The translations under genes and the position numbers were made by a program. The notes under the pieces were generated by a model. That model did no database searches and had not been told where the DNA came from. It worked only from the letters and a program-made list of their open reading frames with translations. Below are positions 9,748 through 59,182 of a stretch of 64,000 nt of DNA, piece by piece. The DNA comes from a virus: positions 1 to 64,000 of the IMG/VR virus record IMGVR_UViG_3300007512_002515. The stretch is one strand, 5' to 3'. Within the stretch, counting starts at the first letter, position 1. Each line of letters starts with the position of its first letter.

Positions 9748-9934
9748 TGGTATAATAACTTAAATTAATTAATTATTAAATTAATAAACAGGTTTTATCA
9801 GTATTTGGTTAACTGGGAAACTGAATTCAGAATTAATATACAACCTCTGTAAAATTTGTACACGCAAAAAACTGAACTTTCTTTTTCATATACAGCTGCT
9901 CACTAGAGGTTATTATTCCTTGTGAGGTAGCTGA
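9748..9934 (+). promoter_or_regulatory. AT-rich intergenic region before the glycan cassette, possible promoter
   Basis: This 187-bp gap, the longest in the window, separates the fibre genes from the glycan cassette. It opens with TATAAT at 9751-9756, followed by an AT-only run to about 9788. The only upstream candidate for a -35 box is TTGTAC at 9726-9731 with a long 19-bp spacer, so the match to a sigma-70 promoter is partial. The decamer TACAGCTGCT at 9891-9900 recurs at 17671-17680 in another gap of the cassette. I see no hairpin with a T-tract. A promoter here is plausible but unproven. Confidence 0.35.
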
Positions 9935-11884: not shown

Positions 11885-12632
11885 TATTGTTCTTCCTTGC
11901 TATAATGGTGAAGCGACTATCGAACGAGCTATTAAATCAATTGCTGCGCAAACATATCGCGATTTTGAGACTGTTTTTGTTGACAACAAATCAGATGACA
12001 GAACATTATCGATAATTGAGCGATATAGACAATCCGCGAATATTCGAATCGTAACTTGCGATACAGCAGGAATCGTTCCAGCGTTGAATACTGGAATATA
12101 TCATAGCGATTCTTCTTTTGTTGCAAGACAAGATGACGATGACTATTGGTACCCAACGAAATTAGAAAAACAAATGCTGCATTTTGAAGAAAATCCCGCC
12201 ACGTCTATTTTGGGTACACGAATTCGTCTTCTTGACGAAGAAGGTAAAGCTCAGGATTTAGGTACGTATGGCCGACCAGTGAATTATCCTGTAGACGATC
12301 ATACGATTCGATATATGCTTATTTTGGGTCAAAATCCGCTGTGTCATCCATCAGTGGTAATGCGTAGAGAGGTACCCCTTGTCGCTGGTGGATATAGCCA
12401 GCATTTTTTCTTGGCAGAAGACATGCATCTTTGGTTAAAGGCATTTCCGTTTTTTAAGTTCGCAAATTTACCAGAGGTTTTGCTAGATTACACCCAGACG
12501 GTTCGTGAAGACTATGACCCTCGTGTAGTGAAGGATTTAGCAACTTTCTACTATAACCTCTATAAGTCACAGGGGATAATCGAAGGAGATCGTCCTGCGC
12601 TAGTCTATGATTGGGAAAGAGGAGTAAAGTGA
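11871..12632 (+). CDS. GT2 family glycosyltransferase
   Basis: A 253-aa GT-A fold inverting transferase with the classic GT2 opening (VSIVLPCYNGEATI), the substrate loop DNKSDDRT, and the metal-binding region ARQDDDDYW. The helix HLWLKAFPFF and the preceding AED supply a likely catalytic acid region. It starts inside the previous gene with GAGGAAG upstream. It is a clear paralogue of the proteins at 14306 and, more distantly, 15168: all share the RQD.DD-type centre and the AEDMHLW-type segment. It is a cytosolic transferase in the cassette; its sugar specificity cannot be read from sequence. Confidence 0.86.
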   Translation: MPKVSIVLPCYNGEATIERAIKSIAAQTYRDFETVFVDNKSDDRTLSIIERYRQSANIRIVTCDTAGIVPALNTGIYHSDSSFVARQDDDDYWYPTKLEKQMLHFEENPATSILGTRIRLLDEEGKAQDLGTYGRPVNYPVDDHTIRYMLILGQNPLCHPSVVMRREVPLVAGGYSQHFFLAEDMHLWLKAFPFFKFANLPEVLLDYTQTVREDYDPRVVKDLATFYYNLYKSQGIIEGDRPALVYDWERGVK

Positions 12633-13477
12633 AACCACTATTACAGACCATAATTTTTTCAAAAAATCGAGCATTTCAATTACATGCATTGCTGTCTTCT
12701 ATGAGATTGAAGGTAAAGACCTTGAAGCCGTTCATTCATACGGCAATATTGTGGTCAGCTGATGGTGCTCATAAGGATCAATATTCCGAATTAATTCAAA
12801 TGTATCCTGAATTTGAGTGGATTGAAGAGACGTCATTTCGTGATCAAGTAATTCAGAAATTAGATGGCTCGAAAGCAAAAAGATGCATGTTTCTTGTGGA
12901 CGATATTATTTTTACAAGAGAAGTAGACTTAGTTGACGCAGTGCAGCTGTGGGATGCTAATGAAGGAGGAGCATATCGCGTCGCTGTATCATTAAGGTTG
13001 GGAATACACTTAACGAGGTGTTATGCACTGGATTGTGAGCAAGTTCACCCAAACACTGGACGCATTGTCGGGCCCTGGTTCGTCTGGAATTGGAAAGATG
13101 CGCACTCAAAGGGAGATTGGAGTTATCCGTTTTCACTAGACGGTCATATCTTCTCTACTGGAAAACTACGAAGCTGGATCGATCATTTAGACTTTGGGAA
13201 CCCCAACGAAATGGAGTCAGAGATGGCTTCAAAGATTCCAATGACATTTAACGTTTCACAAAGTATGCTTTGTTATGTGCATGCGCCTCTTTTTAATATG
13301 CCGCTTAATCGTGTTCAGGACCAATTTAAGAATCGATGTGAAGAAATATCTGTCCAAGAATTATTTGAACATTTTCATAATGGCGATGAGCTAGATTTAG
13401 ATCGATATGATAACATTCTCAATACAGGATGTCATTTTCCAATGCCTGTTTATTTGAGAAAGAGGAAGATAGATTGA
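12629..13477 (+). CDS. Probable GT-A-like glycosyltransferase, unassigned family
   Basis: I place the start at GTG 12629 (282 aa) because GAGGAG at 12619-12624 sits four bases upstream and the codon overlaps the previous stop (GTGA). A TTG 18 bases upstream is possible but has no ribosome site. The N-terminus LQTIIFSKNRAFQL resembles GT-A enzymes that begin with a strand plus NR loop, and FLVDDIIF gives a candidate DxD-like acidic pair near residue 90. The C-terminal third (WFVWNWKDAH, LDGHIFSTG) looks like an acceptor-binding region. Its place between GT genes supports a transferase role, but no family is certain. Confidence 0.6.
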   Translation: MKPLLQTIIFSKNRAFQLHALLSSMRLKVKTLKPFIHTAILWSADGAHKDQYSELIQMYPEFEWIEETSFRDQVIQKLDGSKAKRCMFLVDDIIFTREVDLVDAVQLWDANEGGAYRVAVSLRLGIHLTRCYALDCEQVHPNTGRIVGPWFVWNWKDAHSKGDWSYPFSLDGHIFSTGKLRSWIDHLDFGNPNEMESEMASKIPMTFNVSQSMLCYVHAPLFNMPLNRVQDQFKNRCEEISVQELFEHFHNGDELDLDRYDNILNTGCHFPMPVYLRKRKID

Positions 13478-14301
13478 TGAAAAGAAAAGAATTAAAAATC
13501 GGTATACTGTCAGTCGCTACTGGAAAGTATATAGATTTTCTAGAACCACTTTATGAGTCTATAGAGCATAGATTTTTAAGCGGTTATAAAAAGACATATT
13601 TCGTTTTTACCGATAACCCTAAAGCTGTTCAAACAATCGCTGCAAATGTTGGAGTTGATGCGCTATCTATCCCTATCGAACGTCAAGGATTTCCTGGCGA
13701 CACTTTATTACGATATAACTACTTTTCTAGACTCCCGGCAGCCTTAGCAGAAGTAGGTTCCGAACCTCCTGATGTGCTTTTTTATTTAGACGCTGACATG
13801 TTAGTCTTTTTCCCCGTCGGACCTGAAGTGCTTCCAGTCCCACCGCACTCTGAGCTTGTGGCTACTTCACATCCCGGATATTACAACCACAGAACACCTA
13901 CTCATCCGCTGGGTGATCCAGATCAAAATCCCAAAAGTAGAGCCTATATTCGATCATACGAAGCTGGTGGCGATCATCGTCGTCGAAAAAGAATATGCTA
14001 TCTTGCAGGTGGATTTAACGGTGGTACCTATTCAGCTTTCATGAAGATGTGTGAAGTTTTATCTAAACAAATTGCAGATGACTTAGCAGATGGTGTGATG
14101 GCAAGATGGCATGATGAGTCGCATTTGAATGAGTACTGTAGCAGATATTACATTTTTGAGCGCTTGAAAATTTTGACACCCGAGTACTGTTTTGATCAAA
14201 AAGATATGGAGATAGATGGTAACGATATTCGAATCAAGGGAGTACAGTACGCTCCACGAATAGTTGCACTAGATAAAGACCATAACAAGGTTAGGAGCTG
14301 A
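13477..14301 (+). CDS. GT6 family glycosyltransferase (ABO/alpha-galactosyltransferase-like), DAD motif
   Basis: The best start is ATG 13477 (274 aa), which overlaps the previous stop as TGATG and has GAGGAAG upstream. Diagnostic GT6 segments appear in order: SVATGKYIDF, YKKTYFVFTD, FYLDADMLVFFP, SHPGYY, AGGFNGGTYSAF, RWHDESHLN and LTPEYCFD. GT6 enzymes are retaining transferases that make alpha-1,3 Gal or GalNAc linkages, as in human ABO antigens. From memory, most bacterial GT6 members have NxN in place of DxD, whereas vertebrate and a cyanophage member keep DxD. This copy has DAD, so it is probably metal-dependent. Its acceptor is often fucosylated in ABO-type enzymes, which fits the GDP-fucose genes downstream. 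Confidence 0.88.
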   Translation: MKRKELKIGILSVATGKYIDFLEPLYESIEHRFLSGYKKTYFVFTDNPKAVQTIAANVGVDALSIPIERQGFPGDTLLRYNYFSRLPAALAEVGSEPPDVLFYLDADMLVFFPVGPEVLPVPPHSELVATSHPGYYNHRTPTHPLGDPDQNPKSRAYIRSYEAGGDHRRRKRICYLAGGFNGGTYSAFMKMCEVLSKQIADDLADGVMARWHDESHLNEYCSRYYIFERLKILTPEYCFDQKDMEIDGNDIRIKGVQYAPRIVALDKDHNKVRS

Positions 14302-14305
14302 CATA

Positions 14306-15154
14306 ATGACAAATATACCAAGGGTTTCTGTTTTAATACCCCTGCATAACTGCGAAAAAACTGTATTTCGTGCGATCGACTCTGTTCTGCAACAAACATA
14401 TACTGACTTTGAGGTGGTATGTGTACTAAATAATTGCTCTGATGCAACGGAAGATATACTACGAGATATCCAAGATGAGCGCATAAAGATCGTTTATCAA
14501 AATAAGTTGAAAGGAATTACGCCAACATTAAATCATGGATTTAGACATTGCCTCGGCGAATTTATCGCGCGCCAAGACGGTGATGATTATTGGTATCCAG
14601 AAAAGTTAAAAAAGCAAATGGATTATTTCGAGAGTAATCCAGAAGTTGATATTCTTGGAACACAAATTCGAATGGTGACGTCCGATGGTCAAGATTTTGT
14701 AAACAGAGATGCTGGATATGCTACGTCACAAAACAAATTGGTTACTTGGGATGCGGGAAATCCTGAGACAGATCAAGAAATTCGAGGGTTACTTTTGGAG
14801 GGTGACAATGTAATTGCTCATCCCAGCGTGGTTATGAGGGCAGTTGTATTAGACTGTGTTGGGGGTTATGATCCACTATACATAAGGGCGGAAGATTTGC
14901 ACTTGTGGATGAAGGCATTACCCTTCTTTACATTCGCAAATTTGCAAGAGGTTCTAGTTGACTATACGGTAAAGGAATCATCGAAAGAAGATTGGATGTG
15001 GGGTCAGGACTGGAAAATGGCTGAATGCTTAAAGCCCTTTATTCTGATATTAGAAGAGGAAGATTTACGTGCTGGTAAGTCACGGCGAGAATTTCTAAAA
15101 TCTGTGGGAGCCAATCCACCAACACCTGTCCCTCCCCACAAGCCACTAAAGTAA
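14306..15154 (+). CDS. GT2 family glycosyltransferase
   Basis: A 282-aa GT-A enzyme with the opening VSVLIPLHNCEKTV, the loop LNNCSDAT, and the metal centre ARQDGDDYWYPEKLKKQM. That centre is almost the same as the paralogue at 11871 (ARQDDDDYWYPTKLEKQM). Both also share a HPSVVMR strand and AED.HLW.KA.PFF near the C-terminal third, so the two arose by duplication. AGGAG at 14292-14296 fixes the ATG. The final residues are Pro-rich. It is expected to be a cytosolic transferase acting on the same glycan as its neighbours. Confidence 0.86.
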   Translation: MTNIPRVSVLIPLHNCEKTVFRAIDSVLQQTYTDFEVVCVLNNCSDATEDILRDIQDERIKIVYQNKLKGITPTLNHGFRHCLGEFIARQDGDDYWYPEKLKKQMDYFESNPEVDILGTQIRMVTSDGQDFVNRDAGYATSQNKLVTWDAGNPETDQEIRGLLLEGDNVIAHPSVVMRAVVLDCVGGYDPLYIRAEDLHLWMKALPFFTFANLQEVLVDYTVKESSKEDWMWGQDWKMAECLKPFILILEEEDLRAGKSRREFLKSVGANPPTPVPPHKPLK

Positions 15155-15167
15155 CTTTGGAGAAAAA

Positions 15168-15878
15168 ATGTTCACTATTCTTCTACCAGTTTTTAATGGT
15201 GAGCGCTGGATTATTGAGGCGATACAAAACTTAAAAGACCAGGTTTATACGGATTTTGAAGTCATTATAGTATGCAACGGTTGCACAGATCGATCCGCTA
15301 GTTTTGCATCAAGTCAGATAGCAGAAGATAAAAGGTTTAGATTAGTAGACACAAAATTTGCGAATAAATCATCCGCACTAAATATTGGGGTAATGATGGC
15401 GTCACGAGAGTGGATAGCAATATATGATGTTGATGACCGCTGGCATATAGAAAAACTAGATTATCAAGCCAGAGAGATATTATCTTCTTCTTCCTTGGAA
15501 GTTTTGGGAACACAAATGTTTTATCTGACAGAAGATAATGAAGTACAACCTGAGGGTCCCCTTTTGCCGCTGTCTCATGAAGATATAATGAGCTATTTGC
15601 TGGAAAGAAAAAGCAATCCATTTTGCAATAGCAGTATTACGTATCGAAGAGATTTGCATTTCACTAGAGTGGGATTTTATGATCCGCAATGTGCTGTAGA
15701 AGATTATGACTTTTGGATTCGATGCGCACTTGCTGGTACTCATTTTAAAAATTTGGCCGGGTTTTTAGCATTTCATAGGCTTCATTCTGGATCACATTTT
15801 AACGGATCAAATAAGCAACGCAACGATAAAATTTTTTTAGATAGTATGATGGAGCATAGAAGAAAGGGAGCCGAGTAA
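15168..15878 (+). CDS. GT2 family glycosyltransferase, shorter paralogue
   Basis: This 236-aa protein has the GT2 opening FTILLPVFNGERWI, the loop CNGCTDRS, and an acidic centre IYDVDDRWHIEKL in the place of the RQD.DD motif of its two paralogues. A VEDYDFW segment follows at about residue 185, where the other two have AED.HLW. It is a more diverged third member of the family in this cassette. TTTGGAGAA lies just upstream of the ATG. Substrates are unknown. Confidence 0.84.
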   Translation: MFTILLPVFNGERWIIEAIQNLKDQVYTDFEVIIVCNGCTDRSASFASSQIAEDKRFRLVDTKFANKSSALNIGVMMASREWIAIYDVDDRWHIEKLDYQAREILSSSSLEVLGTQMFYLTEDNEVQPEGPLLPLSHEDIMSYLLERKSNPFCNSSITYRRDLHFTRVGFYDPQCAVEDYDFWIRCALAGTHFKNLAGFLAFHRLHSGSHFNGSNKQRNDKIFLDSMMEHRRKGAE

Positions 15879-15883
15879 TTGAT

Positions 15884-16741
15884 ATGGTAGAAGAATTTTG
15901 TAAAAAATATGGTGTCTCAAAAGACGATGTGGTTTGGATAGATTTACAAGACACAGACTTATCAAAGCTTAAAGCTCTTAGTGAGAGCTTAATAGCGGTC
16001 AAATATGTTAGGATAACAAAGCCATCGATTAATCAAGAATTGCTTAATGACATAAACAATCATTTGACAAATTATTTTTGTTTCCGACGGGTTGACGGTC
16101 CAAATGATCAAGACATCGTTTACGAAAATAAATTTCATACTGATCCGGTTTGGCCTGGGATTGATGTTTCTGGATATGAGAACACTTACATAAGAGGAAA
16201 ACCGAAAGAATATTTACTCCACACAATAAGCCTGTTTAAGCAATTTACAAAGGCTCGTACAATTCTTGAAATCGGATCCGTACGAGCCGTGATGGAGCAT
16301 ACTATTGACGAATTTAATCCCGCATGTTGCAACGATGGTCATTCTACATATTTTTGGAGTCATTATACAGGTGCTGAAGTACACACCGTTGACAACCATC
16401 CCCATAGAAAGAGAAATATTATGGATGTTGATGCTAGACTTTCAAGCGTCTTTGCGCACACTGCCGATGGCATAGAATTTATAAAGAATTTTGACCAAGA
16501 GATCGATTTGCTCTTTTTGGATGCATGGGATGTGATACCCGATACACCATACGCCGAAAGACATTTAGAAGCTTATATCGCTTCGAAACAAAAATTAGCA
16601 GCAAGCTGCTTAGTGCTTATCGACGATACAGACGTCGGTGGCGGCGGTAAGGGTAGACTAGTCATTCCAGAACTTAAGAAAGATGGGTTTCAATGCATAG
16701 CGAATAGAAGACAAACAATCTTTTTGAGGACAGCGCAGTGA
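15884..16741 (+). CDS. Class I SAM-dependent methyltransferase-like protein
   Basis: A 285-aa protein with an N-terminal region of about 100 residues of unknown fold, followed by a Rossmann-like methyltransferase domain. Motif I is ILEIGSVRAV at about residue 127, the acidic strand-2 end is VHTVDNHPHR, and strand 4 is DLLFLDAWDV with an ensuing LVLIDDTD strand. This is the arrangement of Methyltransf_24-type enzymes often found in polysaccharide loci. It probably methylates a sugar of the glycan, though the acceptor is unknown. It overlaps the next gene by GTGA. Confidence 0.68.
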   Translation: MVEEFCKKYGVSKDDVVWIDLQDTDLSKLKALSESLIAVKYVRITKPSINQELLNDINNHLTNYFCFRRVDGPNDQDIVYENKFHTDPVWPGIDVSGYENTYIRGKPKEYLLHTISLFKQFTKARTILEIGSVRAVMEHTIDEFNPACCNDGHSTYFWSHYTGAEVHTVDNHPHRKRNIMDVDARLSSVFAHTADGIEFIKNFDQEIDLLFLDAWDVIPDTPYAERHLEAYIASKQKLAASCLVLIDDTDVGGGGKGRLVIPELKKDGFQCIANRRQTIFLRTAQ

Positions 16742-17661
16742 CACGTATAGTATTGATAAACACACCAACTCTTCCTTGTCCAGATACACATTATTTACAT
16801 GTTAAGAAATTTCTAAAAGGGTTTGTTCAAAACGGCTTTCCGCTTATTGAGGTTAATAATAAAAGAGAAATTGATGCCTTAACTCATGACGACATTGTAT
16901 ACATCTCCAATCATGGGTTCGAACCATGGGCTGGTGTAAGTCGCGAAGATCTACCAATACAAAATGCTTTAAAGCAAATGGAGCTTCTGGAGAAGAAATG
17001 TCATTATGCGATATTGTGGCATTTTCATCAAGCGTTGTTCAGATTTTTTTATGAGCCGCAATTTAAGAACGTTATTTTAACCGGCCACTGGCGTGGGTCA
17101 TGGGCTGATGAAGAATATTTCGATTTTTCATTTACACCGTATAGTCAATTGGAGAATTTTGTTCCTATGAGATTTGCTACTGACCTTCATCCCTCTGAAA
17201 TTGAGGATCCGCTTGACAAGGTTTATGACGCATGCTTTATTGGGACTCCATATAAGATACCGTGGATTCAAGAAATTGCCGGTCGCCACAATGTATATGC
17301 TCATTTTGGTAAACCGTGGTTACCAGAAGCAGATAGGCTTCGTGTTCTAAGAACTTCTACAATTGGTCTGGGCTTTGGTGCCGACCAGAATGTGAAGGAG
17401 GGTGTAATGACTGAAAGAGTTATTGAAAGCATTGCTCATGGGTGTGTTGTGATAAGTGATTGCGCCACTGCACCAGAAAGAACCGGTGGCGCAGCAATTT
17501 ATGTCGAAAGCAAGCAACACGCTCTTGAAGAAGTAAAACGGATTTTACATTCACCTGAGTTCGCTAGAGAAAAAATGCACCTCGGCCTTGAGTTTGTTAG
17601 AAATGAGGGCACCTATTTTCATCTTGCAAAAGATATGCTTGATGCACTGAATATCACATAA
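16738..17661 (+). CDS. GT-B glycosyltransferase, CgeB-like (glycosyl transferases group 1)
   Basis: The 307-aa protein starts at GTG 16738, overlapping the previous stop by four bases, with GAGGA upstream. The N-terminal half holds the strand-loop pattern of a GT-B fold (IVLINTPTLPC, VYISNHGFE). The C-terminal half carries ACFIGTPYKIPW, then VMTERVIESIAHGCVVISD, the nucleotide-sugar-binding segment typical of CgeB-like and related GT4-clan proteins. It is the last gene before a 64-bp gap. Role in glycan assembly is inferred. Confidence 0.75.
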   Translation: MTRIVLINTPTLPCPDTHYLHVKKFLKGFVQNGFPLIEVNNKREIDALTHDDIVYISNHGFEPWAGVSREDLPIQNALKQMELLEKKCHYAILWHFHQALFRFFYEPQFKNVILTGHWRGSWADEEYFDFSFTPYSQLENFVPMRFATDLHPSEIEDPLDKVYDACFIGTPYKIPWIQEIAGRHNVYAHFGKPWLPEADRLRVLRTSTIGLGFGADQNVKEGVMTERVIESIAHGCVVISDCATAPERTGGAAIYVESKQHALEEVKRILHSPEFAREKMHLGLEFVRNEGTYFHLAKDMLDALNIT

Positions 17662-17725
17662 GCGAACTTGTACAGCTGCTATATTTTAAATAAAATGTTT
17701 AGAACATGTTATTCTGGGTTTAGTA
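17662..17725 (+). promoter_or_regulatory. Intergenic gap with possible promoter in the glycan cassette
   Basis: This is one of only two noncoding gaps longer than about 15 bp between cassette genes up to 26789. It has TTGTAC at 17668-17673 and TAAAAT at 17691-17696, a 17-bp spacing; the -10 agrees with consensus at five of six positions but the -35 at only three. TACAGCTGCT at 17671-17680 is the same decamer as at 9891-9900. An internal promoter is possible; nothing here is decisive. Confidence 0.3.
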
Positions 17726-18496
17726 ATGCAAGAAATCATATTGGGGTCTCCTTATGGCGGGCTAGGAGACAATATTCAACTTTCTACGCTACCAGAGCTG
17801 TACGCTAAAGCGGGACATGATGTCTATATTTGCAGTGAAGCTTATTTTCGTAATCCCGAAATAAAAGAGCTCATTTGGGAATGTAATCCTTTTGTGAGGG
17901 GTACAAAGTCAGGTATTTGTAATGCTGGAGACACCCCCGGCCGCCACCGTCCAGTGCACCCAAATCCCATATCTAATTGGGAGATTCTTCATGGGTTTTC
18001 ACCAACAAACACGATACCAAAGATTTATTATACTCCACAAAAGATCGATATATTCCAAGATGTATTTCTTGTGGATTTTTCTTCAATATCAGCAGTTTTT
18101 AGTACGAGAGTTGTGGAAGAAGCTTATTTGATGATTAAAGAAAAGTACCCTGACAAAACTTTTCGACGTGTCCGATTTCAACAAAACTTAAATCCTGTCA
18201 ACGAAAAAGCACAATGGCAAAATGGCGTCTTTAGAGAATTAAACATCAGCGTAGGCAATGACGTAGTTGTAAATAACATCTTTGAGTATTGTGATATAAT
18301 ATGCTCATCTTTTGGATTCTTATCAATCTATAGTGGCGCCAGCCATCTAAGTTCTGCACTGAAAGAGTATAATCGAGAGTTGATTAGCTTATGTGTAGTA
18401 AGACAGGAGCACTATGAACATAATCGACGTAATTCGCTTCATTTATACGATAATATTGAATATATTCTTGTCTCATCCGATGGACTAGGGTTTTAA
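17726..18496 (+). CDS. GT9/heptosyltransferase-like protein
   Basis: A 256-aa protein opening with SPYGGLGDNIQLSTLPELY, close to the GxGDxLxxTP start of GT9 ADP-heptose:LPS heptosyltransferases, and followed by a YICSEAYFRNPEI strand. It is shorter than usual heptosyltransferases (about 320-350 aa) and the C-terminal half is poorly conserved; SSFGFLSIYSGASHL resembles the GT9 DSG..H acceptor-site loop. Its next-door neighbour is a heptose-1-phosphate adenylyltransferase homologue, which fits a heptose transfer role. No good ribosome site is seen before the ATG. Family assignment is tentative. Confidence 0.55.
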   Translation: MQEIILGSPYGGLGDNIQLSTLPELYAKAGHDVYICSEAYFRNPEIKELIWECNPFVRGTKSGICNAGDTPGRHRPVHPNPISNWEILHGFSPTNTIPKIYYTPQKIDIFQDVFLVDFSSISAVFSTRVVEEAYLMIKEKYPDKTFRRVRFQQNLNPVNEKAQWQNGVFRELNISVGNDVVVNNIFEYCDIICSSFGFLSIYSGASHLSSALKEYNRELISLCVVRQEHYEHNRRNSLHLYDNIEYILVSSDGLGF

Positions 18497-34450: not shown

Positions 34451-34957
34451 ATGGCAATAGTCCCAATTGGTAATAGAAAAGTTTATTCTTTCAAGTCTGT
34501 AGGGCAAGATGCTGCTGAAAGAAAAAAGTTTAGAGCGGAGCAGATTAGCGCTAGAAATAAGACGGCTTTTGGTATAAAGACTCCAGTACAATTATCAACT
34601 GGAGGTACTGAATTTCTTAAGATGAATTATTCTATGGCAGATCAAGTTTCCGATAATTTTAGAAACTTGATTTTGACAAATCATGGAGAGCGGTTGGGGT
34701 TTCCAGATTTCGGGGCAAATCTCATGGAATTGGCATTCGAGTTACAGAGCGAAGACGGCCAACAGGAAGCTGTTCACCGTATTAGCAAAGCAGCTGGAAA
34801 GTATATGCCCTATTTAATACCCAATACTTTTGAAGCGATTGTTGATCATTTTGATAATCAGACGGTTGCGAAAGTCGGCCTTAGGATAAGTTACGATATT
34901 CCGAAACTAAAGGTAAGTAATAGAATTTTAGAAGTGATCATCTACACTGCGAGTTAA
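34451..34957 (+). CDS. Baseplate wedge protein, gp25-like
   Basis: A 168-aa member of the gp25/GPW family, judged by DQVSDNFRNLILTNHGERLGFPDFGANLMELAFE in the middle; the family core is the turn RxGxPxFG. AGGAG at 34441-34445 precedes the ATG. In T4 gp25 joins wedges of the baseplate and primes the sheath. An N-terminal extension of about 60 residues is longer than in T4 gp25 (132 aa). It is followed directly by the gp6-like gene, as expected. Confidence 0.86.
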   Translation: MAIVPIGNRKVYSFKSVGQDAAERKKFRAEQISARNKTAFGIKTPVQLSTGGTEFLKMNYSMADQVSDNFRNLILTNHGERLGFPDFGANLMELAFELQSEDGQQEAVHRISKAAGKYMPYLIPNTFEAIVDHFDNQTVAKVGLRISYDIPKLKVSNRILEVIIYTAS

Positions 34958-34963
34958 TAAAAA

Positions 34964-36808
34964 ATGGCAAATGATATAAAGAAGCAATTAAAGAAAGAGC
35001 TACAACGAAATTATCTCGCAAAAGATTTTACGGGTTTTAGGAGTGACTTATTGAGTCATGCTAGGGTGTATTTCCCTGACAAAATAAAAGACTTCACAGA
35101 AGCTAGTCTTGGGGGTATGCTTTTAGATATGGCAGCATTCGTGGGAGACTCGATGTCTTTCTATTTAGACCACCAATTTAATGAGCTAAATTGGTCCACT
35201 GCTATTGAAGCTAAAAATGTTAAGAAGCATCTACGAAATGCTGGTGTAAAGGTTCGAGGAGCAGCTCCCTCCATTGCAGAGGTAAGGTTTTATTTTGAGA
35301 TACCAGCAAAGCTATCTGGGACCGAGTACGGTCCAGACTCTTCTCTTTTGCCCAAGGTGGGTCGAGGCACTAAGTTAGCTTCTGCTAAAGGGGTTCCATT
35401 TTCGTTGATAGACGATCTAGACTTTACTGAGAAAGACTTATTGGGAAACTACCTTTATGATGCGATACTTGTTGAAGTTGATGATGCTGGAGATCCATCC
35501 AGCTATGTTGTTAGCATGATCGGAATATGTCTATCTGGTGAAGAAAAGACTGAGTCAATAAAGATCCCCAATTTGCACAAGCCCTTTCGTACGTTGACAT
35601 TAGCCGCTGAAAATATCACAGACATCATAAGCGTAAAGGACAGCGAAGATAATGAATATTACGAGGTAGATAATCTTACACAAGATACTGTGTTTCAGGC
35701 TGTGCTTAATACGACTGAAGACGCTGAGCAGGTGCCTAATAATATTGAAATAATCCCAGCTCCCTACCGCTTTCTTACAATCTATGATTACAATACAAAA
35801 TTAACGAAACTTCGATTTGGTGGTGGTGATGCTCAGACTCTTGATAACGACATTGTTCCTGATCCAGCCGATTTAGCATTGCCAATGTACGGAAAAACTG
35901 TAATGAGTAGATTTTCCATTGATCCTGGCTCGTTATTACAAACACAAACTCTTGGAATAGCACCTAGAAATACAACTCTAAAAATAACATATCGCTACGG
36001 TGGAGGGCTAAATCATAACGTGGCTGCCAATACAATCAAGACGGTAGACACACTATATCTCACATTCCCCAGCGTCGCAAACGCGACAGGAGCCAATAAT
36101 GTTAGGGGCTCGGTAGATATTTTGAACGAAGATCCCGCCTCAGGTGCAGATAATGCTCCAACTCTTGAAGAGCTTCGTGCACAGATTCCAGCGGCGCGTC
36201 AAGCCCAGAATAGAATCATTACCAAACCCGATTTGGTTTCAAGAATTTATACCTTGCCCAACAAGTTTGGGAGAGTGTATCGTGTAGGTGTACAGCCAAA
36301 CCCTATAAATTCTTTAGCGTCTCAAATATTCGTTATTTCAAGAGACAAAAACAAAAAGCTTGGACTAACACCTGATACGCTTAAGAAAAACATGAGAAAA
36401 TACCTTAATGAATTTCGTGCTGTTAGCGATGCATTTGATATTTTAGATGCTCAGATTATTAATTTTGCTCTTGATTTTGTGATTGTAGCTCATCCGGCAT
36501 CTAATAAGACACAGGTTGCGCAAAAAGCAATCCAAGCTTTGGCGAAGATTTTAGACACGAAGAATTTTCAGATCGATATGCCTATTGCGCTTTCAGACAT
36601 AACAAACACAATCTTAAATACTGACGGGGTAATTTCTTTGGTGGCACTGGAACTTTCAAATAAGACGGGTACAATCGAAGATCGCGTCTATAGCGATGTT
36701 TCATTCAACCCTCAGGCAAACACATACCAACAGATGGTGATTGGCCCCGCTGGGTCAATCTTTGAATTGAAGTTTCCAAAATCTGATATAACAGTTTCGG
36801 TAAGGTGA
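34964..36808 (+). CDS. Baseplate wedge protein, gp6-like (baseplate J family)
   Basis: A 614-aa protein with the gp6/baseplate-J N-terminus: KDFTGFRSDLLSHARVYFPD, then EASLGGMLLDMAAFVGDSMSFYLDHQFNE at about residues 45-80. It forms the wedge ring around the hub in T4. The body has KKHLRNAGVKVRGAAPS and the C-terminal AQIINFALDFVIVAHPASN, which matches the domain common in baseplate J proteins. It is close to T4 gp6 in size (660 aa). Its place after gp25 supports the call. Confidence 0.85.
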   Translation: MANDIKKQLKKELQRNYLAKDFTGFRSDLLSHARVYFPDKIKDFTEASLGGMLLDMAAFVGDSMSFYLDHQFNELNWSTAIEAKNVKKHLRNAGVKVRGAAPSIAEVRFYFEIPAKLSGTEYGPDSSLLPKVGRGTKLASAKGVPFSLIDDLDFTEKDLLGNYLYDAILVEVDDAGDPSSYVVSMIGICLSGEEKTESIKIPNLHKPFRTLTLAAENITDIISVKDSEDNEYYEVDNLTQDTVFQAVLNTTEDAEQVPNNIEIIPAPYRFLTIYDYNTKLTKLRFGGGDAQTLDNDIVPDPADLALPMYGKTVMSRFSIDPGSLLQTQTLGIAPRNTTLKITYRYGGGLNHNVAANTIKTVDTLYLTFPSVANATGANNVRGSVDILNEDPASGADNAPTLEELRAQIPAARQAQNRIITKPDLVSRIYTLPNKFGRVYRVGVQPNPINSLASQIFVISRDKNKKLGLTPDTLKKNMRKYLNEFRAVSDAFDILDAQIINFALDFVIVAHPASNKTQVAQKAIQALAKILDTKNFQIDMPIALSDITNTILNTDGVISLVALELSNKTGTIEDRVYSDVSFNPQANTYQQMVIGPAGSIFELKFPKSDITVSVR

Positions 36809-50994: not shown

Positions 50995-53900
50995 TTGCCG
51001 CGCGAGTCAAAGAGCGATCTAAGAAAATCTGATTTTTTGATTATTAGATCAAAAACAGACGGTTCTATTGTGAAAATCGTGTCACCCCAGCATTTCCAGG
51101 TGGGGTTTGATGATGCTGATTTTGAGCGTGTTGTTTTGGTCAATGGCACGGTCAAATCAACAATGGGTGTTTATTCCCCGGCATTCTCTGGGTCGTTACA
51201 AACGTTGATGGATGGTACATCTTATCTACGTGAGGGTAACAACGTATCAATCACCTCTGGCTCTGATGGATCAATTACGATAGCCGCAGGCACGGCTGGC
51301 ATTGCACACTCTTTAACAGGTGGCGGCGCATCAAAGGGAATAAAAGCTTTTGATTACGATGGCACTTCGGCTAAAGAGGTTGAAGTTGATTTAGATACTA
51401 TCAATGGTGGCCTTGGCTTTTCTAAGTGGGGTCTGGCTGTGATACCCTCTAAGGCCAACTCTATTCTTGATTCCGAAGATCTTTCTCAATCAGATCTATT
51501 GGTTATTGAAGATGTCACCGACGCCGATGAGGGTGTTAAGAAAATTACGGTGGGTGACTTAATGTCTGCCGCCACTACAGGGGTGCTTAGTAACGCTATA
51601 ACGTTTGGTAACGGAATATACGATTCTGCGAACGCGGCAGCTTCGTACAACAATAGCGCTGCAGCAACGATAGCAGTTGATCTTCAGACAGACCCAGGTT
51701 TATCATTTAGCCAACAAAAATTAGGGGTGCTATTAAATGGAGCCACGATAAGCAACGGTGCGTCAGGCTTGAGCGTTGCGAGTGTCCCCAGCGCAGTGAC
51801 TTGGGGTGTAGGACTTTTATCCACCGTAGGCAATTCATTTGATGGTTCTGCCGCCACAACAGTATCAATTGATACAGGAATAATACCTGCCCTCGGAACG
51901 CCAAACACATTTACGGGTGTCAATACATTCTCTTCTCTAGCTGGTGGCGGAATTATTGGCTCGATACAAGAGGTATCACCCGGTACTGACTATCTGGTTG
52001 GTGGTAGTAATGTTACAATTACAAAAGACCTTCCCGGAGCCGGCCAGATAACGATAGCTGCTTCCATGGGAACGGGCGGCGATCTGACTCAAGGTTCTGG
52101 AATCCAGACCTTTCTCTATAATGGAACAGCCCCTGCAACAGTGGCCTTAGATGCTACATCCCTAGCAGTGTCAGGTGATAGAACGTCATATGTTTTTCTT
52201 TCTGATGGAGGAACCACAATAACTAAGCGCACTGTGGCAACCCTAGTGGATCTAGCAGATAGAACTGCTCTAGTTGCTTCAAAGGTAGGTGGGGGAATAA
52301 CTGTTGAGTTCCCCGGGTCAACTGTTCCAGCACAATTTTCTATTGATAGTGATGGAACAACACTCCGGGTTGGCAGCAGTGGATTAGAAGTTAAAAAGGT
52401 TCCGTATAACTTAACTCAAACAACTGGGATCGCGACATTTTCATTTAATGGATCGTCTGCGCAGACTGTGGGTATCGACACCGGTGTGGTACCCCGGAAG
52501 GGTGTCGATAATACCTGGACGGGTCAAAATACATTCGGTGTATCCACCACCGCTGGTTTGACGGGTTCTCTCCAAGAAGTGACCGCCGGCGTGCCCTATC
52601 TCGCAACCGGCACAGGCATGAGTATTACTACATCATCAAATGGCCAGGTTGTTATTTCTACAAACGGAGAAGAAGTAACAGGTATAACGGCTGGTGATGG
52701 ATTGTCTGGGACCCGTACAGGAGGTGATGTAACGTTAGCTGTTGATTTAGCGCCCCACCCGGGTCTTGAATTTAGCACTGGAAAGCTAAAGGTAGATCTC
52801 GACGGTAACACACTTTCATTAGGGATCTCTGGGATATCTGTCGCAAGTCTTCCCTCGGCATTATCACAAGATGTAGGTATTAATACATTTTCGTTTGACG
52901 GCTCAACAGCTAGAACGGTTGGTATCGACACTGCAATCGTTCCACGAAAAAATGTTGACAATACATGGTCAGGAAAAAATACATTCGGCGTATCCGCTAC
53001 AGCTGGATTAACAGGCTCTCTACAGGAGGTGACTAATGGAGTGCCCTATCTATTGGCATCCGCAGGGGTCACCATAACCACCGCATCGAACGGCCAAATT
53101 ACCATCTCTGCTACAGGCACAGGAGGAACAATCACTGGCTTGACCGCAGGTGACGGATTGTCAGGCGGTGGTAGCTCTGGGAACGTAACAGTGGATATTG
53201 ATCTTGCTACGGACCCCGGACTTCAATTCACAACTGGGAAACTAGATGCGAAGCTTAACCCTAATGATACGATAAGAAAAGATGCCGATGGTCTTGCAGT
53301 CAATAAAGTACCGTATGATTTGACCCAAGGCGCAGGAATCAGCTCGTTTGGATTCGATGGTAGCTCTGGTGGACAAGTTGTTTCAATCGATCAAACCCAA
53401 GTTCCAATGCTTGCAAACGACAATACGTGGACAGGCGATAATATATTCTCGGTTGGTTTATCCGGTTCGTTACAAATGCTAAGCGATGGCAATACGAAGT
53501 ACATGGCAGGAATCGGTGGTATTAAGATTTCTACGTCATCATTAGGACAAATTTTAGTATCGGGTAGCGAGGGTAAGATTTATACCGCCGGCCTCGGCTT
53601 AGATCTCGCTACAGATCAATTTTCGGTTGATAATGCCATTGTCGCTACCTTGACAGGGTCGCAATTTAGCGGTGACGTTGGGATTACCGGTTCTTTGGGC
53701 GTCGAGGCAAATGCAATTTTCAAGACAGGGTTGTCTGGTTCTCTTCAAATGTTGTCGGATGGTACGACGGAGTATCTAGCTGGAATCGGCGGAATAGCTA
53801 TTACAACTGCCTCAAATGGTCAAATAACGATTAGCGGTAGTGTGGGGCGTGTGTATACGTCAGGGGTCGGCCTAAGCTTGGAGGAAGATCAGTTCTTTGT

Positions 53901-55959
53901 AGATAATTCTATTGTAGCAACATTAACTGGGTCTGTTTTTAGTGGAGACCTCATCGCACAAACAGGATTGTCTGGTTCTCTTCAAATGTTGTCAGATGGA
54001 ACGACGAAATATCTCGCGGCTGGTTCTGGAATAACAATCTTGACGGCGTCAAATGGTCAAGTAACAATAGCTACCACTGGTGTGTCGGGCTTGAGCAGCG
54101 TTTCTCAAGCTGGGGGCTCTTCATTTTCTGATATTACAGCTGTGGTCTTCACAGGAAGTCTTGTGACTGAGCCCACCTCGGGTACTGCACAGATAACACC
54201 CGTGATTGGTGCCCCAGAGGATGGAGATTATACCGATGGCCTCTTTACTGATTTTTCTTATGGAACTAACATTGGTACTGCGATCGATAGGTTCAACGAG
54301 GTCCTGAAGGGACTGGCTCCACCCGCTGCACCAATACTGGATGATATGAACTGTTCGGACTCTGGGGCTACTGCAAATCTGTCTTTCGGCTCGTCACAAT
54401 CTATATCTGGGTATACAAATGCTCAACCTTCTACTCTAACCCCGAGTAGTGGACTATCAGACACCAATATAAATGGCACCTATAATTCTGACACCGCCAG
54501 CAATGATCTTCAAGTTGCGTGCTTTCAATCGACCATTATAAATGGTACACTAAATGCTGACATTCCCGCTGACGGAGTTAATTACAGCGCTGATTCATTC
54601 GGGAATGCTGATCAGGGAACATTAAAGCTATATGTGAATGATAATGTAACCCCTGTCCATTCTGTCGATTTAAGTACATTCGGCTCTGGTAATTCGTTAA
54701 ATGGGAATGGAACAGGATTTAATCTAACTGCAAAAACAGCTGGTCACTTTGCTGATGGAAGTAATTTTGAAACATTCCAGCACAGACAAGGAACCTACAC
54801 CATCGCTGCCGGTGTTGAGATATCAGATGACCAGCGGAACGGGTGGAATTGGGCAAGAGTAGTACATACAATATCCGATGTGGATACAACGTGCAATTAT
54901 GTCGAGTGGGTGAACGACACCACTGATAATGTAACGTATCCACTTTCATCAACTGGAGCGTCTTTTGGAGCACTATCGATGACAGGGACTGAATATTTGT
55001 CAGGTGTGAAGTACTACACAGGTGGGTCTGCGACATATAGCGTAACGGTGGATAACGCTTATAGGAACGTATACTCAAATAGCTTTATAACATTTAACGG
55101 CACAAATTGTGGAAATGAGACGCAGGCCTTTGACCCAATAGATTGGTCAGGTGGTGAAAATGAGTCAAAACAAATGAGTCTAAGTCAATTGATGACGATT
55201 AATGTAAGCAGTATCTTAGATGGACCAATATCCACTAGCGTTACCGTACCCCATCCGCTAAGGGCAAATCTTTCAAGCGCGTCTTCTCAATCTCACAATA
55301 ACATTCTTTTGTACAACCGAAGTGATAATTCAACTGATACATACGAGTCATTTCGCGGAGAAAGTAGAAGAGTGAAGTCTGGTAGCTATGTTGATCAAGC
55401 AGCCGTAACAGCAGGCGGAAACGTATGGGTATCTACAACAGCGTTGACCACGGTTGACGGATTGATGTTCTATGACCAGAAGCTTGTTGGTCCAGATGAA
55501 GGTGCAAACGGATCCGATTTTAGCAGTGTTGCAAATGGACCCGCCGGGAATGTAGATTATAGTGGGATAACCTCTGGGCTAAGAACATTTTATAGATGGT
55601 TTCGAAACCCAACTGCTGGAAGTGATAGGACGGGTTTTGATTTAGAGATTAATGGAGCCGGAACAATCGTGACACAACCCACTGCGTTAACTGGAAACAG
55701 AATTCATGTGCTATGTAAGCTTCCCACCGGCTCCGCGGGTGAAACTGGATGGATGGATCTTGCGATTGGATTTTCTACAGGGCAAACGTCGGACGGCGAC
55801 GGATGCTATTCGGGGGCGTTCGACTCTAGTTTATCTGCAACTAACACTGCAACTTTCGGCACACAAACAGTTGCAGCTGGTGAATATGTAATGGTAAAGG
55901 TCGAGGCCGATGCATCATGGACAGGAAATATATCATCGATGACGGTAGCGTGGAGCTAG
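50995..55959 (+). CDS. Repeat-built fibre protein (1654 aa), TTG start
   Basis: The gene starts at TTG with a strong ribosome site. A recurring module (SGSLQ.LSDGT.YLA, then I.I.T.SNGQITIS) is seen seven times, near nucleotides 51187, 51952, 52555, 53005, 53455, 53728 and 53965. A second motif (DNTWTG.NTF) precedes three copies, and TAGDGLSG..SGNVT occurs twice. The C-terminal 550 residues (from about 1110) are unlike the repeats: ILDDMNCSDSGATANLSFG, then Ser/Thr/Gly strands with Cys. It looks like a long trimeric fibre with a distinct tip domain. The direct neighbour at 55963 carries an eighth copy. Confidence 0.75.
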   Translation: MPRESKSDLRKSDFLIIRSKTDGSIVKIVSPQHFQVGFDDADFERVVLVNGTVKSTMGVYSPAFSGSLQTLMDGTSYLREGNNVSITSGSDGSITIAAGTAGIAHSLTGGGASKGIKAFDYDGTSAKEVEVDLDTINGGLGFSKWGLAVIPSKANSILDSEDLSQSDLLVIEDVTDADEGVKKITVGDLMSAATTGVLSNAITFGNGIYDSANAAASYNNSAAATIAVDLQTDPGLSFSQQKLGVLLNGATISNGASGLSVASVPSAVTWGVGLLSTVGNSFDGSAATTVSIDTGIIPALGTPNTFTGVNTFSSLAGGGIIGSIQEVSPGTDYLVGGSNVTITKDLPGAGQITIAASMGTGGDLTQGSGIQTFLYNGTAPATVALDATSLAVSGDRTSYVFLSDGGTTITKRTVATLVDLADRTALVASKVGGGITVEFPGSTVPAQFSIDSDGTTLRVGSSGLEVKKVPYNLTQTTGIATFSFNGSSAQTVGIDTGVVPRKGVDNTWTGQNTFGVSTTAGLTGSLQEVTAGVPYLATGTGMSITTSSNGQVVISTNGEEVTGITAGDGLSGTRTGGDVTLAVDLAPHPGLEFSTGKLKVDLDGNTLSLGISGISVASLPSALSQDVGINTFSFDGSTARTVGIDTAIVPRKNVDNTWSGKNTFGVSATAGLTGSLQEVTNGVPYLLASAGVTITTASNGQITISATGTGGTITGLTAGDGLSGGGSSGNVTVDIDLATDPGLQFTTGKLDAKLNPNDTIRKDADGLAVNKVPYDLTQGAGISSFGFDGSSGGQVVSIDQTQVPMLANDNTWTGDNIFSVGLSGSLQMLSDGNTKYMAGIGGIKISTSSLGQILVSGSEGKIYTAGLGLDLATDQFSVDNAIVATLTGSQFSGDVGITGSLGVEANAIFKTGLSGSLQMLSDGTTEYLAGIGGIAITTASNGQITISGSVGRVYTSGVGLSLEEDQFFVDNSIVATLTGSVFSGDLIAQTGLSGSLQMLSDGTTKYLAAGSGITILTASNGQVTIATTGVSGLSSVSQAGGSSFSDITAVVFTGSLVTEPTSGTAQITPVIGAPEDGDYTDGLFTDFSYGTNIGTAIDRFNEVLKGLAPPAAPILDDMNCSDSGATANLSFGSSQSISGYTNAQPSTLTPSSGLSDTNINGTYNSDTASNDLQVACFQSTIINGTLNADIPADGVNYSADSFGNADQGTLKLYVNDNVTPVHSVDLSTFGSGNSLNGNGTGFNLTAKTAGHFADGSNFETFQHRQGTYTIAAGVEISDDQRNGWNWARVVHTISDVDTTCNYVEWVNDTTDNVTYPLSSTGASFGALSMTGTEYLSGVKYYTGGSATYSVTVDNAYRNVYSNSFITFNGTNCGNETQAFDPIDWSGGENESKQMSLSQLMTINVSSILDGPISTSVTVPHPLRANLSSASSQSHNNILLYNRSDNSTDTYESFRGESRRVKSGSYVDQAAVTAGGNVWVSTTALTTVDGLMFYDQKLVGPDEGANGSDFSSVANGPAGNVDYSGITSGLRTFYRWFRNPTAGSDRTGFDLEINGAGTIVTQPTALTGNRIHVLCKLPTGSAGETGWMDLAIGFSTGQTSDGDGCYSGAFDSSLSATNTATFGTQTVAAGEYVMVKVEADASWTGNISSMTVAWS
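53731..53993 (+). repeat. Near-identical direct repeat inside the fibre gene
   Basis: The 26 bases at 53731-53756 are identical to those at 53968-53993, 237 bp later, and the match continues with few changes through the following codons. They encode the LSGSLQMLSDGTT module. Identity at the DNA level, not only the protein level, suggests recent duplication or gene conversion between modules. Confidence 0.85.
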
Positions 55960-55962
55960 ATA

Positions 55963-57537
55963 ATGGGATATGATGCAACAACTGAGAGGCTTATTGCATT
56001 AAAGAAGCTTGCAGGAAAAGCGCAGACTTCTAACCTCAAGGGTCTATCAAATGAAGGGCTACCATCAGGCCTTACTGTGTCTTTTGAAACAGTATTCGGT
56101 GAAAGTATTACCACGGAGCCGTCCAATAGCTCACTTTATCAAATCACAGGACAAGTAGAATATCTTAGATTTCCTGCAACATTCATAGCAGGTACTGCGA
56201 CGACAGCTGGTCGTCATGGTTTTGAATTAAAATTACCAGCAGACTATGAAGCGAATTCTTCAAATCCAAAAGCCGGAACGTATCCTTACATAGACGATCA
56301 GGTAATAAACATTACCTCGGGATCGCTACAAGTGATACCGCCGTCTTTTGCAACTGGCTATGAAGTAAAGCCATATTACGGAGGCACCACCGCGAAAGAT
56401 TCCGGAACACAAATCCTTCTTTTAGATTCTAGAGATTGGTATCTAGATTATTTTAATGGTGTGTTTTTCCAACAGGACCCTCCCGGTACCGGTGATGATG
56501 AACAAAATCCAGACTACGTTGAGGGGTATCTTTACATTGGAGATTATCTCAACGATACATCTGGGGGTGGAACTATTACCGATGTTGTTGCTGGTACTGG
56601 ATTAACCGGTGGAGGTGGCACGCCTACGGTAACACTAAATATTGATAATTCGGTCGTGGCTACGTTGACAGGTTCGCAATTTACTGGTGATGTGGATGTA
56701 ACTGGGTCTTTCTTGGTGAGGACCGGAGACTTTAGAGTGGAGTCAGTTGGTGAGGATCAAGCTTTATTCTTAGACGCTTCTTCTAATCAATTTTATATTA
56801 ATAAAGGGGCAACTTCATTTACGACTATCATTAAGAATACAAACAATGAGGTTTTTAGAGCTGGCGCAGGCGGCGCAATATTCAACGAGTATGGTAATAA
56901 GCATATTGATTTTAGAATTGAGTCGTGGGACAAGCCCTATGCATTCTACATTGAGTCACAAAAAAATCAGATACTAATCCTTTCAGGTGGTGGAGGAACT
57001 TCACCGGATGAAATGACATATACTGACATGAATTTCTTTGTTTCGGGCTCTATTGGGTCTAGAAACAGCTCTACTAAGGGTACTTCTATTTTTGGTGGAG
57101 ACGTACTTTCTTCTGGTTCCCTCACGGCCTTGAGTGGTTTATCGGGCTCCCTAACAAAGCTTTCAGATGGCACTTCATACCTGAGGGCCGGCTCAAATGT
57201 AACAATTACGTCGGGATCTGGCGGATTTATTACTATTGCTTCATCGGGAGGCGGCGGAGGTGGCCTAACTCGTGCTAAAGATAGCTATTTTCTTTCTTCC
57301 TCCGTACCAACACTTCAGGCAATACCAGTCGCATCATCAGATTTTTCCGATGCCAGTTATGATTCTAACTTGATAGATGTTCTTTTGAACGGTCAGCTTA
57401 TGCACTCTGGCAGCGCGCCAGAGGTAACAGCATCAGAAAGAGATTATTATGTAGCAGGACCATCCTCTCTTAAGTTTGCGTTTCAACTAGATATAAATGA
57501 CATCATTGATGTTGTTGTTTATACGGTGGCAGAGTAA
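55963..57537 (+). CDS. Fibre-like protein (524 aa) sharing modules with both other fibre genes
   Basis: A 524-aa mosaic. Residues about 205-230 have VAGTGLTGGGGTPTVTLN, then a VVATLTGSQFTGDVDVTGS strand pair also found in the 1654-aa neighbour. About 356-386 is a FFVSGS..SR..STKG..IFGGDV module otherwise found in the 1267-aa protein at 1880. About 390-425 is the SGSLTKLSDGTSYLRAGSN module of the neighbour. The last 80 residues (LIDVLLNGQL, DINDIIDVVVY) match the C-terminus of the 57854 protein. It is probably a fibre segment or adaptor linking other fibre parts. Confidence 0.72.
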   Translation: MGYDATTERLIALKKLAGKAQTSNLKGLSNEGLPSGLTVSFETVFGESITTEPSNSSLYQITGQVEYLRFPATFIAGTATTAGRHGFELKLPADYEANSSNPKAGTYPYIDDQVINITSGSLQVIPPSFATGYEVKPYYGGTTAKDSGTQILLLDSRDWYLDYFNGVFFQQDPPGTGDDEQNPDYVEGYLYIGDYLNDTSGGGTITDVVAGTGLTGGGGTPTVTLNIDNSVVATLTGSQFTGDVDVTGSFLVRTGDFRVESVGEDQALFLDASSNQFYINKGATSFTTIIKNTNNEVFRAGAGGAIFNEYGNKHIDFRIESWDKPYAFYIESQKNQILILSGGGGTSPDEMTYTDMNFFVSGSIGSRNSSTKGTSIFGGDVLSSGSLTALSGLSGSLTKLSDGTSYLRAGSNVTITSGSGGFITIASSGGGGGGLTRAKDSYFLSSSVPTLQAIPVASSDFSDASYDSNLIDVLLNGQLMHSGSAPEVTASERDYYVAGPSSLKFAFQLDINDIIDVVVYTVAE

Positions 57538-57853: not shown

Positions 57854-59182
57854 ATGGCTATTACATCAAAATTGCGCCTATTACAACTGACAGGATCAGT
57901 TGCAAATGCCAGTTCAGTCTCCACCGCGGCTGAAGTGTCAGGAAAGCTCGTCGGCGCCGGGCAAAATATGCTGGATCCCTCAGCGAACTCAGGTAACTAT
58001 CAACTCCCAGCTGGCGCCACCCTGGATGGATTGAATCTCGGCGCACTGGACAGGTCTAGCGACCTTTCTGGTGTAATGCAGCTCCTCGCTGATGGTCTTG
58101 GAAAGATCACTGGTAGAGCCGACTGGACAAACCAGACTCCTGGAACAATCGAATTCGGAGACATTGGAGCAGAGTCCCGCGGACAAAACACGTTTGATCT
58201 CCAGCTTCTACAGTCCGCCGCTGATAATAAGATTAAGGTCGACTCAGTGGGACAACTGCAGCTTGGATCAGATAAGCTTTTCAGCGTTGCTAGTAACAAG
58301 ACTGGCGGTACCGCGCTGAAGATTCAGACTGGTGGCGACGGTCGAGGTCCTGGTACACACGGAGCCGGAGTGACCGCCGGTGGTATCGACGTCCTCAGTC
58401 AGATGTCACTCCTCTTGAGTTCATCGAACTCTAGTGTCACGCTGAAGTCTAAGGCTGACGGCCCAGGCGCAGTGATTCTGTCAGCATCTGGAGGTAGCTC
58501 TCCTTCGGTTCGAGTCCAATCGAACCGATTCGAGTGGATGGCTACAGGTAATGCCGGTGATGGCGACGTCAAGTCGGATTTCCGGATAGGCACTTGGGGA
58601 ACATATCCCGCTGTCGGAATCGGTGGTATCAAAGACGACCAGAATGTGACGCTTTATGCTGGCGCGAAAGGTGGGCAACTATTCCTTTCCGGTTCAGAGG
58701 CTACTGCTCCGGTTGGATTTTCATGCGGAAACAACCAAGCCGATGGCACATACCCCAGCTCTGCTGGACCAGGTGGACTTGCACTCTATAATAATATTTC
58801 AGAGGCATCCGGATATGTTACGGCAATGGGTCAGAGCACTTCACTCCTGAAGGCCATCGTGGATCTGAACGATAAGATTGCATCGAATGCAGAGCCCACT
58901 CTGTTCTCGAAGCTCATCTCGGCCGCCGGCGGAGTCGCTGCAAATGACGCCGTTACACTCACCAAGATCACGGGTAACAATGATGACTTACAGGGTCATA
59001 AGCCGAACAACATCCAGGTGATGTTGAATGGGCAATTGCTTCTGTCGGCTTCTGGGACAACCGATGGTGTTGTTAACAATGATGGCGATTATGCGGTCAA
59101 GGAAACCGGTTCAACTGATGAAATCCGATTTGGGTTCGGGTTGCAAGCTGATGATATTATCCGACTGTACTACTTTGGGTAG
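57854..59182 (+). CDS. Probably abundant virion protein (442 aa)
   Basis: A 442-aa Gly/Ala/Ser-rich protein with strands like those of the fibre genes (VTLYAGAKGGQLFLSGS) and a C-terminal 90-residue domain with IQVMLNGQLLLSAS and GLQADDIIRLYYFG, matched by the C-terminus of the 524-aa neighbour. Its codons end in C or G much more often than those of nearby genes (for example the run from 57950 to 58100). It has its own leader and a strong terminator. These point to high expression, so it may be a major fibre or decoration protein; I find no capsid (HK97-type) evidence. Confidence 0.7.
   Translation: MAITSKLRLLQLTGSVANASSVSTAAEVSGKLVGAGQNMLDPSANSGNYQLPAGATLDGLNLGALDRSSDLSGVMQLLADGLGKITGRADWTNQTPGTIEFGDIGAESRGQNTFDLQLLQSAADNKIKVDSVGQLQLGSDKLFSVASNKTGGTALKIQTGGDGRGPGTHGAGVTAGGIDVLSQMSLLLSSSNSSVTLKSKADGPGAVILSASGGSSPSVRVQSNRFEWMATGNAGDGDVKSDFRIGTWGTYPAVGIGGIKDDQNVTLYAGAKGGQLFLSGSEATAPVGFSCGNNQADGTYPSSAGPGGLALYNNISEASGYVTAMGQSTSLLKAIVDLNDKIASNAEPTLFSKLISAAGGVAANDAVTLTKITGNNDDLQGHKPNNIQVMLNGQLLLSASGTTDGVVNNDGDYAVKETGSTDEIRFGFGLQADDIIRLYYFG

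Follow-up and report, generated by a model that had tools for sequence, protein, structure and literature searches.

The window, a 64,000-nucleotide stretch of viral DNA, carries two adjacent fibre genes on its + strand. Fibre gene A (50995..55959, +) encodes 1,654 residues from a TTG start with AGGAGG upstream, and fibre gene B (55963..57537, +) encodes 524 residues. Gene A is composed of an N-terminal anchor formed by the first ~60 residues (50995..51174, +) and conserved in 22 of 69 distinct complete relatives, a middle region bearing seven copies of a short motif, and a C-terminal all-beta domain of 585 residues (54202..55956, +) that serves as the family marker; gene B bears one motif copy. 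Two baseplate wedge subunit genes, at 34451..34957 (+; PHROG 43/261) and 34964..36808 (+; PHROG 219), lie 14-16 kb upstream on the same strand as the fibre genes. Their proteins have relatives in Flavobacterium and Microcystis phages, and in the Flavobacterium phage, genes annotated as tail fibre and tail spike follow the baseplate wedge gene at a distance of ~9-13 kb. The wedge genes upstream, the matches of relatives' units to PHROG tail fiber and virion structural proteins, and the anchor-shaft-tip architecture bear out the first-pass annotation, which had named both genes as fibre genes. An island preceding the tail genes (9935-30171) encodes glycosyltransferases, nucleotide-sugar epimerases and an alcohol dehydrogenase-like gene. 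Fibre gene B shares a C-terminal domain with the next long ORF (57854-59182), positions 57253-57534 matching 58901-59179 with 25 of 71 residues identical (E 8e-8). The prokaryote genome collection yields a single match, on a 305,838-bp contig within a Methylococcaceae MAG bin, possibly a phage contig.

A profile search recovers eight motif copies, seven in the 1,654-residue ORF and one in its neighbour, as first described, and none further. On the + strand of gene A these are copy 1 (51181..51306), copy 2, the most diverged (51949..52077), copy 3 (52555..52680), copy 4 (53005..53130), copy 5 (53455..53580), copy 6 (53728..53850) and copy 7 (53965..54087), with copy 8 (57136..57258, +) in gene B. 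The profile was made from the window's own eight copies, which score 60.7-67.1 bits in gene A and 61.8 bits in gene B; in its control, 200 shuffles of the protein, the top domain score is 3.3 bits, against at least 60.7 for the true copies. A second profile, which includes seven of the eight window copies, finds exactly eight across the whole 178,344-bp record, all within the two fibre genes. The pattern originally written for the motif, SGSLQ.LSDGT.YLA, serves as a loose consensus but fails as a literal one, with no copy matching every letter: copies 3 and 4 read GSLQEVT.GVPYL, and copies 6 and 7 have one additional residue ahead of YL. Tandem Repeats Finder, run on the repeat region, reports only a 9-bp element and misses the larger units because these are too diverged.

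The true repeat is longer than the written pattern and combines the motif with linkers. The motif itself, ~40 residues long, forms a loop followed by a predicted beta-hairpin in a low-confidence model; after it come one of several linkers and then, usually, an ATLTGS.FSG element. The resulting composite unit, made of interchangeable pieces, mostly measures 78-113 residues. Within gene A, copies 3-4 and 4-5 are each spaced by 150 residues, copies 5-6 by 91 and copies 6-7 by 79. Across 32 loci, the spacing of consecutive copies has a minimum of 78 residues and clusters at 78-79, 83-85, 90-93, 95-98, 102-103 and 107-113, beyond which spacings are larger and irregular. Copies 3 and 4 are enclosed by a 450-bp-spaced DNA repeat (52435..53051, +; 72% over 167 nt), and a linker element with ATLTGSQFSGDV (53627..53696, +) recurs in gene B at 56642-56711 with 76% identity. 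The AlphaFold2 monomer model of the repeat contains two hairpins at low confidence (pLDDT 65.5, pTM 0.27).

Among 37 shaft segments, five, all from relatives and none from the window, match PHROG 38058 'tail fiber protein' at E<=0.01, and seven match PHROG 2824 'virion structural protein'; no PHROG match above noise is obtained with the shaft proteins of the window itself. One 37-residue stretch of the window's shaft (53194..53304, +) matches Pfam PF06536 (avian adenovirus fibre) at 30.1 bits, above the gathering cut-off of 22.7, which recalls adenovirus-type fibre shafts; the likeness is limited to that stretch, with 0 of 37 unit segments matching, and a trimer or triple beta-spiral would be conjectural. 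A shaft piece has no tblastn match in 50,697 phage records, one unit has none in 72,556 plasmids, and solved structures searched by sequence show no significant match.

The C-terminal domain, by sequence comparison, is a family of its own. It has 175 relatives in viral contigs, 80 of which were kept. Thirty members have no match in Pfam, one label-less PHROG is matched by three of 27 members, and the window's own tip has no PHROG match. In a tblastn search of phage records, the C-terminal part alone matches five metagenomic records of 462-735 kb. AlphaFold2 predicts a confident all-beta tip (pLDDT 85.6, pTM 0.72). Searches against PDB folds place bacterial adhesin and immunoglobulin-like domains in the top Foldseek rows at TM <0.2 by query length, and the best VIA-align hit (Z 8.3) has an rmsd of 11.3, perhaps just a common arrangement; both were rejected. 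Predicted structures in BFVD are closer: unannotated proteins of the jumbo phages CcrColossus, Atu_ph07 and PTm1 have C-terminal domains of similar fold (Foldseek E 5e-22 to 2e-15; TM 0.44-0.53 by query length) at only 12-18% identity, and the viral entry A0A516MAW2 is nearer to the window's tip, with 37% identity and a TM of 0.78.

Comparison of relatives supports a change of fibre length by whole units. Of 85 loci with the C-terminal domain that were examined, 10 near-identical and 6 open-ended ones were removed, leaving 69. Motif copies, counted at domain E<0.01, number zero in 35 of these loci and 1-10 in the other 34; a stricter cut-off lowers a few counts (L051 to 9 from 10, L057 to 5 from 7). 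All 22 loci with the N-terminal anchor carry copies, from 1 to 10. In the 34 ORFs that bear the motif, the number of copies correlates with length ahead of the tip (Spearman 0.85), a value uncorrected for kinship and partly due to the length that the copies themselves occupy. The alignment of L050 with L018 contains a single gap of exactly 91 residues, one unit, and that of L055 with L018 a single gap of 156 residues, two 78-residue units. Other gaps are split (31+31 for L055 against L050; 83, 84 and 63 for L051 against L055), and the gap between the window and L018, 21+36+19 residues in the pairwise alignment, becomes one block of about one unit in a full-length multiple alignment. Gap placement within repeats is ambiguous, and whole-unit size is the firm part. 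Anchor and tip are conserved and the middle is variable across gene A relatives; the C-terminal part of L050, L051 and L055 reaches ~1,200 residues, longer than in L018 and the window, and tips therefore vary too. Among 76 sources, 46 carry the motif (stop-to-stop ORFs, E<1e-3); in 24 it is present both in the ORF with the C-terminal domain and in the one immediately downstream, although several of the loci stop short of the end of the second gene. Paired fibre genes of this kind are therefore frequent in the family.

The last two copies of gene A share more than their protein sequence. The 26 identical bases noted previously are exact at 53731..53756 and, 237 bp downstream, at 53968..53993 (both +). 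When synonymous codons are redrawn 50,000 times for the two fixed peptides, weighted by codon usage in 13 ORFs of the window, a run of 26 nt arises 12 times, which makes codon choice alone an unlikely cause. Codons agree at 18 of the 27 residues that copies 6 and 7 have in common, compared with 9 of 25, 7 of 22 and 7 of 25 in three other pairs. Copies 6 and 7 are therefore related by duplication or conversion, and a common DNA descent beyond protein constraint is supported. The high identity spans ~56 bp at 89% inside 109 bp at 78%, and an exchange between the two copies would delete 79 residues with the frame kept. Such a run is ordinary among relatives: across 25 ORFs bearing two or more copies, that of the window among them, the longest exact internal repeat is 44 bp (L090), with 32 bp in L025 and L063 and 30 bp in L050. 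Identity between the best internal DNA repeats of these ORFs mostly lies at 67-85%, and neither the window nor the 24 relatives contain near-identical tandem units.

In a tree of 29 units, built by a quick method with 11 of 26 inner branches open, the closest neighbour of window unit 5 is L018 unit 4, whereas window unit 6 falls closest to units of L051. Unit 6 is thus nearer to units of another locus than to unit 5, which leaves a simple duplication of 5 into 6 unsupported. The six L051 units require two label changes, a number as low in 1 of 500 shuffles, and this clustering shows lineage expansion. Shared descent and local expansion have therefore both shaped the arrays.

Near-identical genomes address whether copy number is changing now. 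Five motif-bearing sets (window/L020, L021/22/23, L051/52/53, L046/L089 and L047/48) contain 0 indels and the same copy number through the fibre gene and as far as 2.5 kb past it; contigs within a set may be non-independent, representing one virus from linked samples, and short-read assembly may collapse, and so hide, identical tandem copies. L020 is the same contig as L008, and L014-16 are the same contigs as L021-23. The first-pass proposal that copy number changes and alters fibre length thus holds between relatives, with 1-10 copies in 22 orthologues and whole-unit gaps, and not within the five sets; its recombination between the last two copies is matched by their shared DNA descent but not by any variation in copy number among near-identical genomes. 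The sister contig L008 differs from the window at four bases in 13,488 (52367, 53062, 57301 and 57379), all inside the two fibre genes and all altering an amino acid, a weak observation given so few sites.

Our preferred reading, which we consider probable, is that both genes encode tail fibres and that the phage is large and myovirus-like. The conserved N-terminal piece of fibre A probably fixes the fibre to the virion. The middle would form an extended shaft whose repeat units, beta-rich and each opened by the motif, are interchangeable, and the C-terminal 585 residues a conserved beta-sandwich tip. Over evolutionary time, recombination would have added, removed, swapped and homogenised whole units, always in frame, so that fibre length changes while anchor and tip persist. 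The fibre is presumably trimeric and attached at the baseplate, the tip would bind the receptor, and we infer that recombination is the agent of unit change.

Three other explanations bear on the same data. The shaft may be an old array that is now stable, in which the 26 bp shared by copies 6 and 7 reflect local gene conversion with copy number unchanged; this is a substantial possibility, if clearly on the less probable side. It fits the short extent of high identity between the two copies, the constant copy number inside near-identical sets and the published stability of the BACON arrays of crAssphage (PMC6949934), whereas the whole-unit gaps among orthologues indicate that copy number in the family did change. 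We regard as unlikely the stronger form of the first-pass proposal, that copy number is being switched in the present phage population by repeat recombination, giving fibres of several lengths. The exact repeat would permit the in-frame loss of 79 residues, and in-frame tail-fibre tandem duplications are described for coevolving EfV12-phi1 (PMC6365445); however, perfect homology extends over just 26 bp inside 78% identical DNA, and the near-identical sets are free of indels, a result that assembly collapse or linked samples may mask. Slightly more doubtful still is a role of the motif as a binding module instead of a spacer, in which avidity would come from ligand-binding hairpins, one per copy, displayed along the fibre. 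Pfam CBM_X2 matches 10 of 37 unit segments weakly (best E 8.9e-6), but in the window protein it stays under the cut-off, at 11 of 28.9 bits across 19 residues, and the fold modelled as globular with confidence belongs to the tip, not the shaft.

Changes in repeat number have already been published for phage tail proteins (PMC6365445, PMC6949934); the fibre family itself is new and unnamed. In EfV12-phi1, tandem duplication within a tail-fibre gene likewise keeps the frame, lies ahead of a predicted carbohydrate-binding domain and yields genes of several lengths, its 1.8-kb copies having arisen in days under selection (PMC6365445); the window's family differs in its diverged units of 237-450 bp, with no variation seen in near-identical sets. 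The crAssphage BACON repeats are also a tail-associated array, one that expanded through internal duplication and transfer of domains and is stable within a lineage (PMC6949934), but they consist of another domain, whereas the family described here has a short beta motif and interchangeable linkers, in 1-10 copies between a common anchor and tip. The motif is without mention in the literature searched on phage fibres and repeats and may nonetheless be published. A widespread, hitherto unlabelled fibre family in large environmental phages is now described, and its natural series of 1 to 10 units is usable for studying how fibre length affects host range. A broader generalisation, to which we give slightly less than even weight, is a 'cassette' fibre in large phages, with one anchor, one tip and a shaft drawn from a small alphabet of interchangeable units of ~78, 84, 91, 96, 102 and 108 residues, its reach tuned through recombination by the choice and number of units in both adjacent genes.

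Several relatives contain further repeat arrangements. The fibres of L047 (6954-7495) and L049 (7208-7526), whose C-terminal DNA is 84% identical, carry an 84-bp (28-residue) tandem repeat in 6.5 and 3.8 copies, respectively, which changes faster than the main motif. L016 has a 240-bp repeat with 87% identity past the fibre genes (14021-14260 and 14435-14674). In L025, a second fibre gene (9765-17759) bears 14 motif copies in a frame that extends near the locus end. L063 (2910-11633) joins a fibre-B-like N-terminus, a resemblance judged by eye, to the fibre A C-terminal domain with nine copies between, a possible domain swap.
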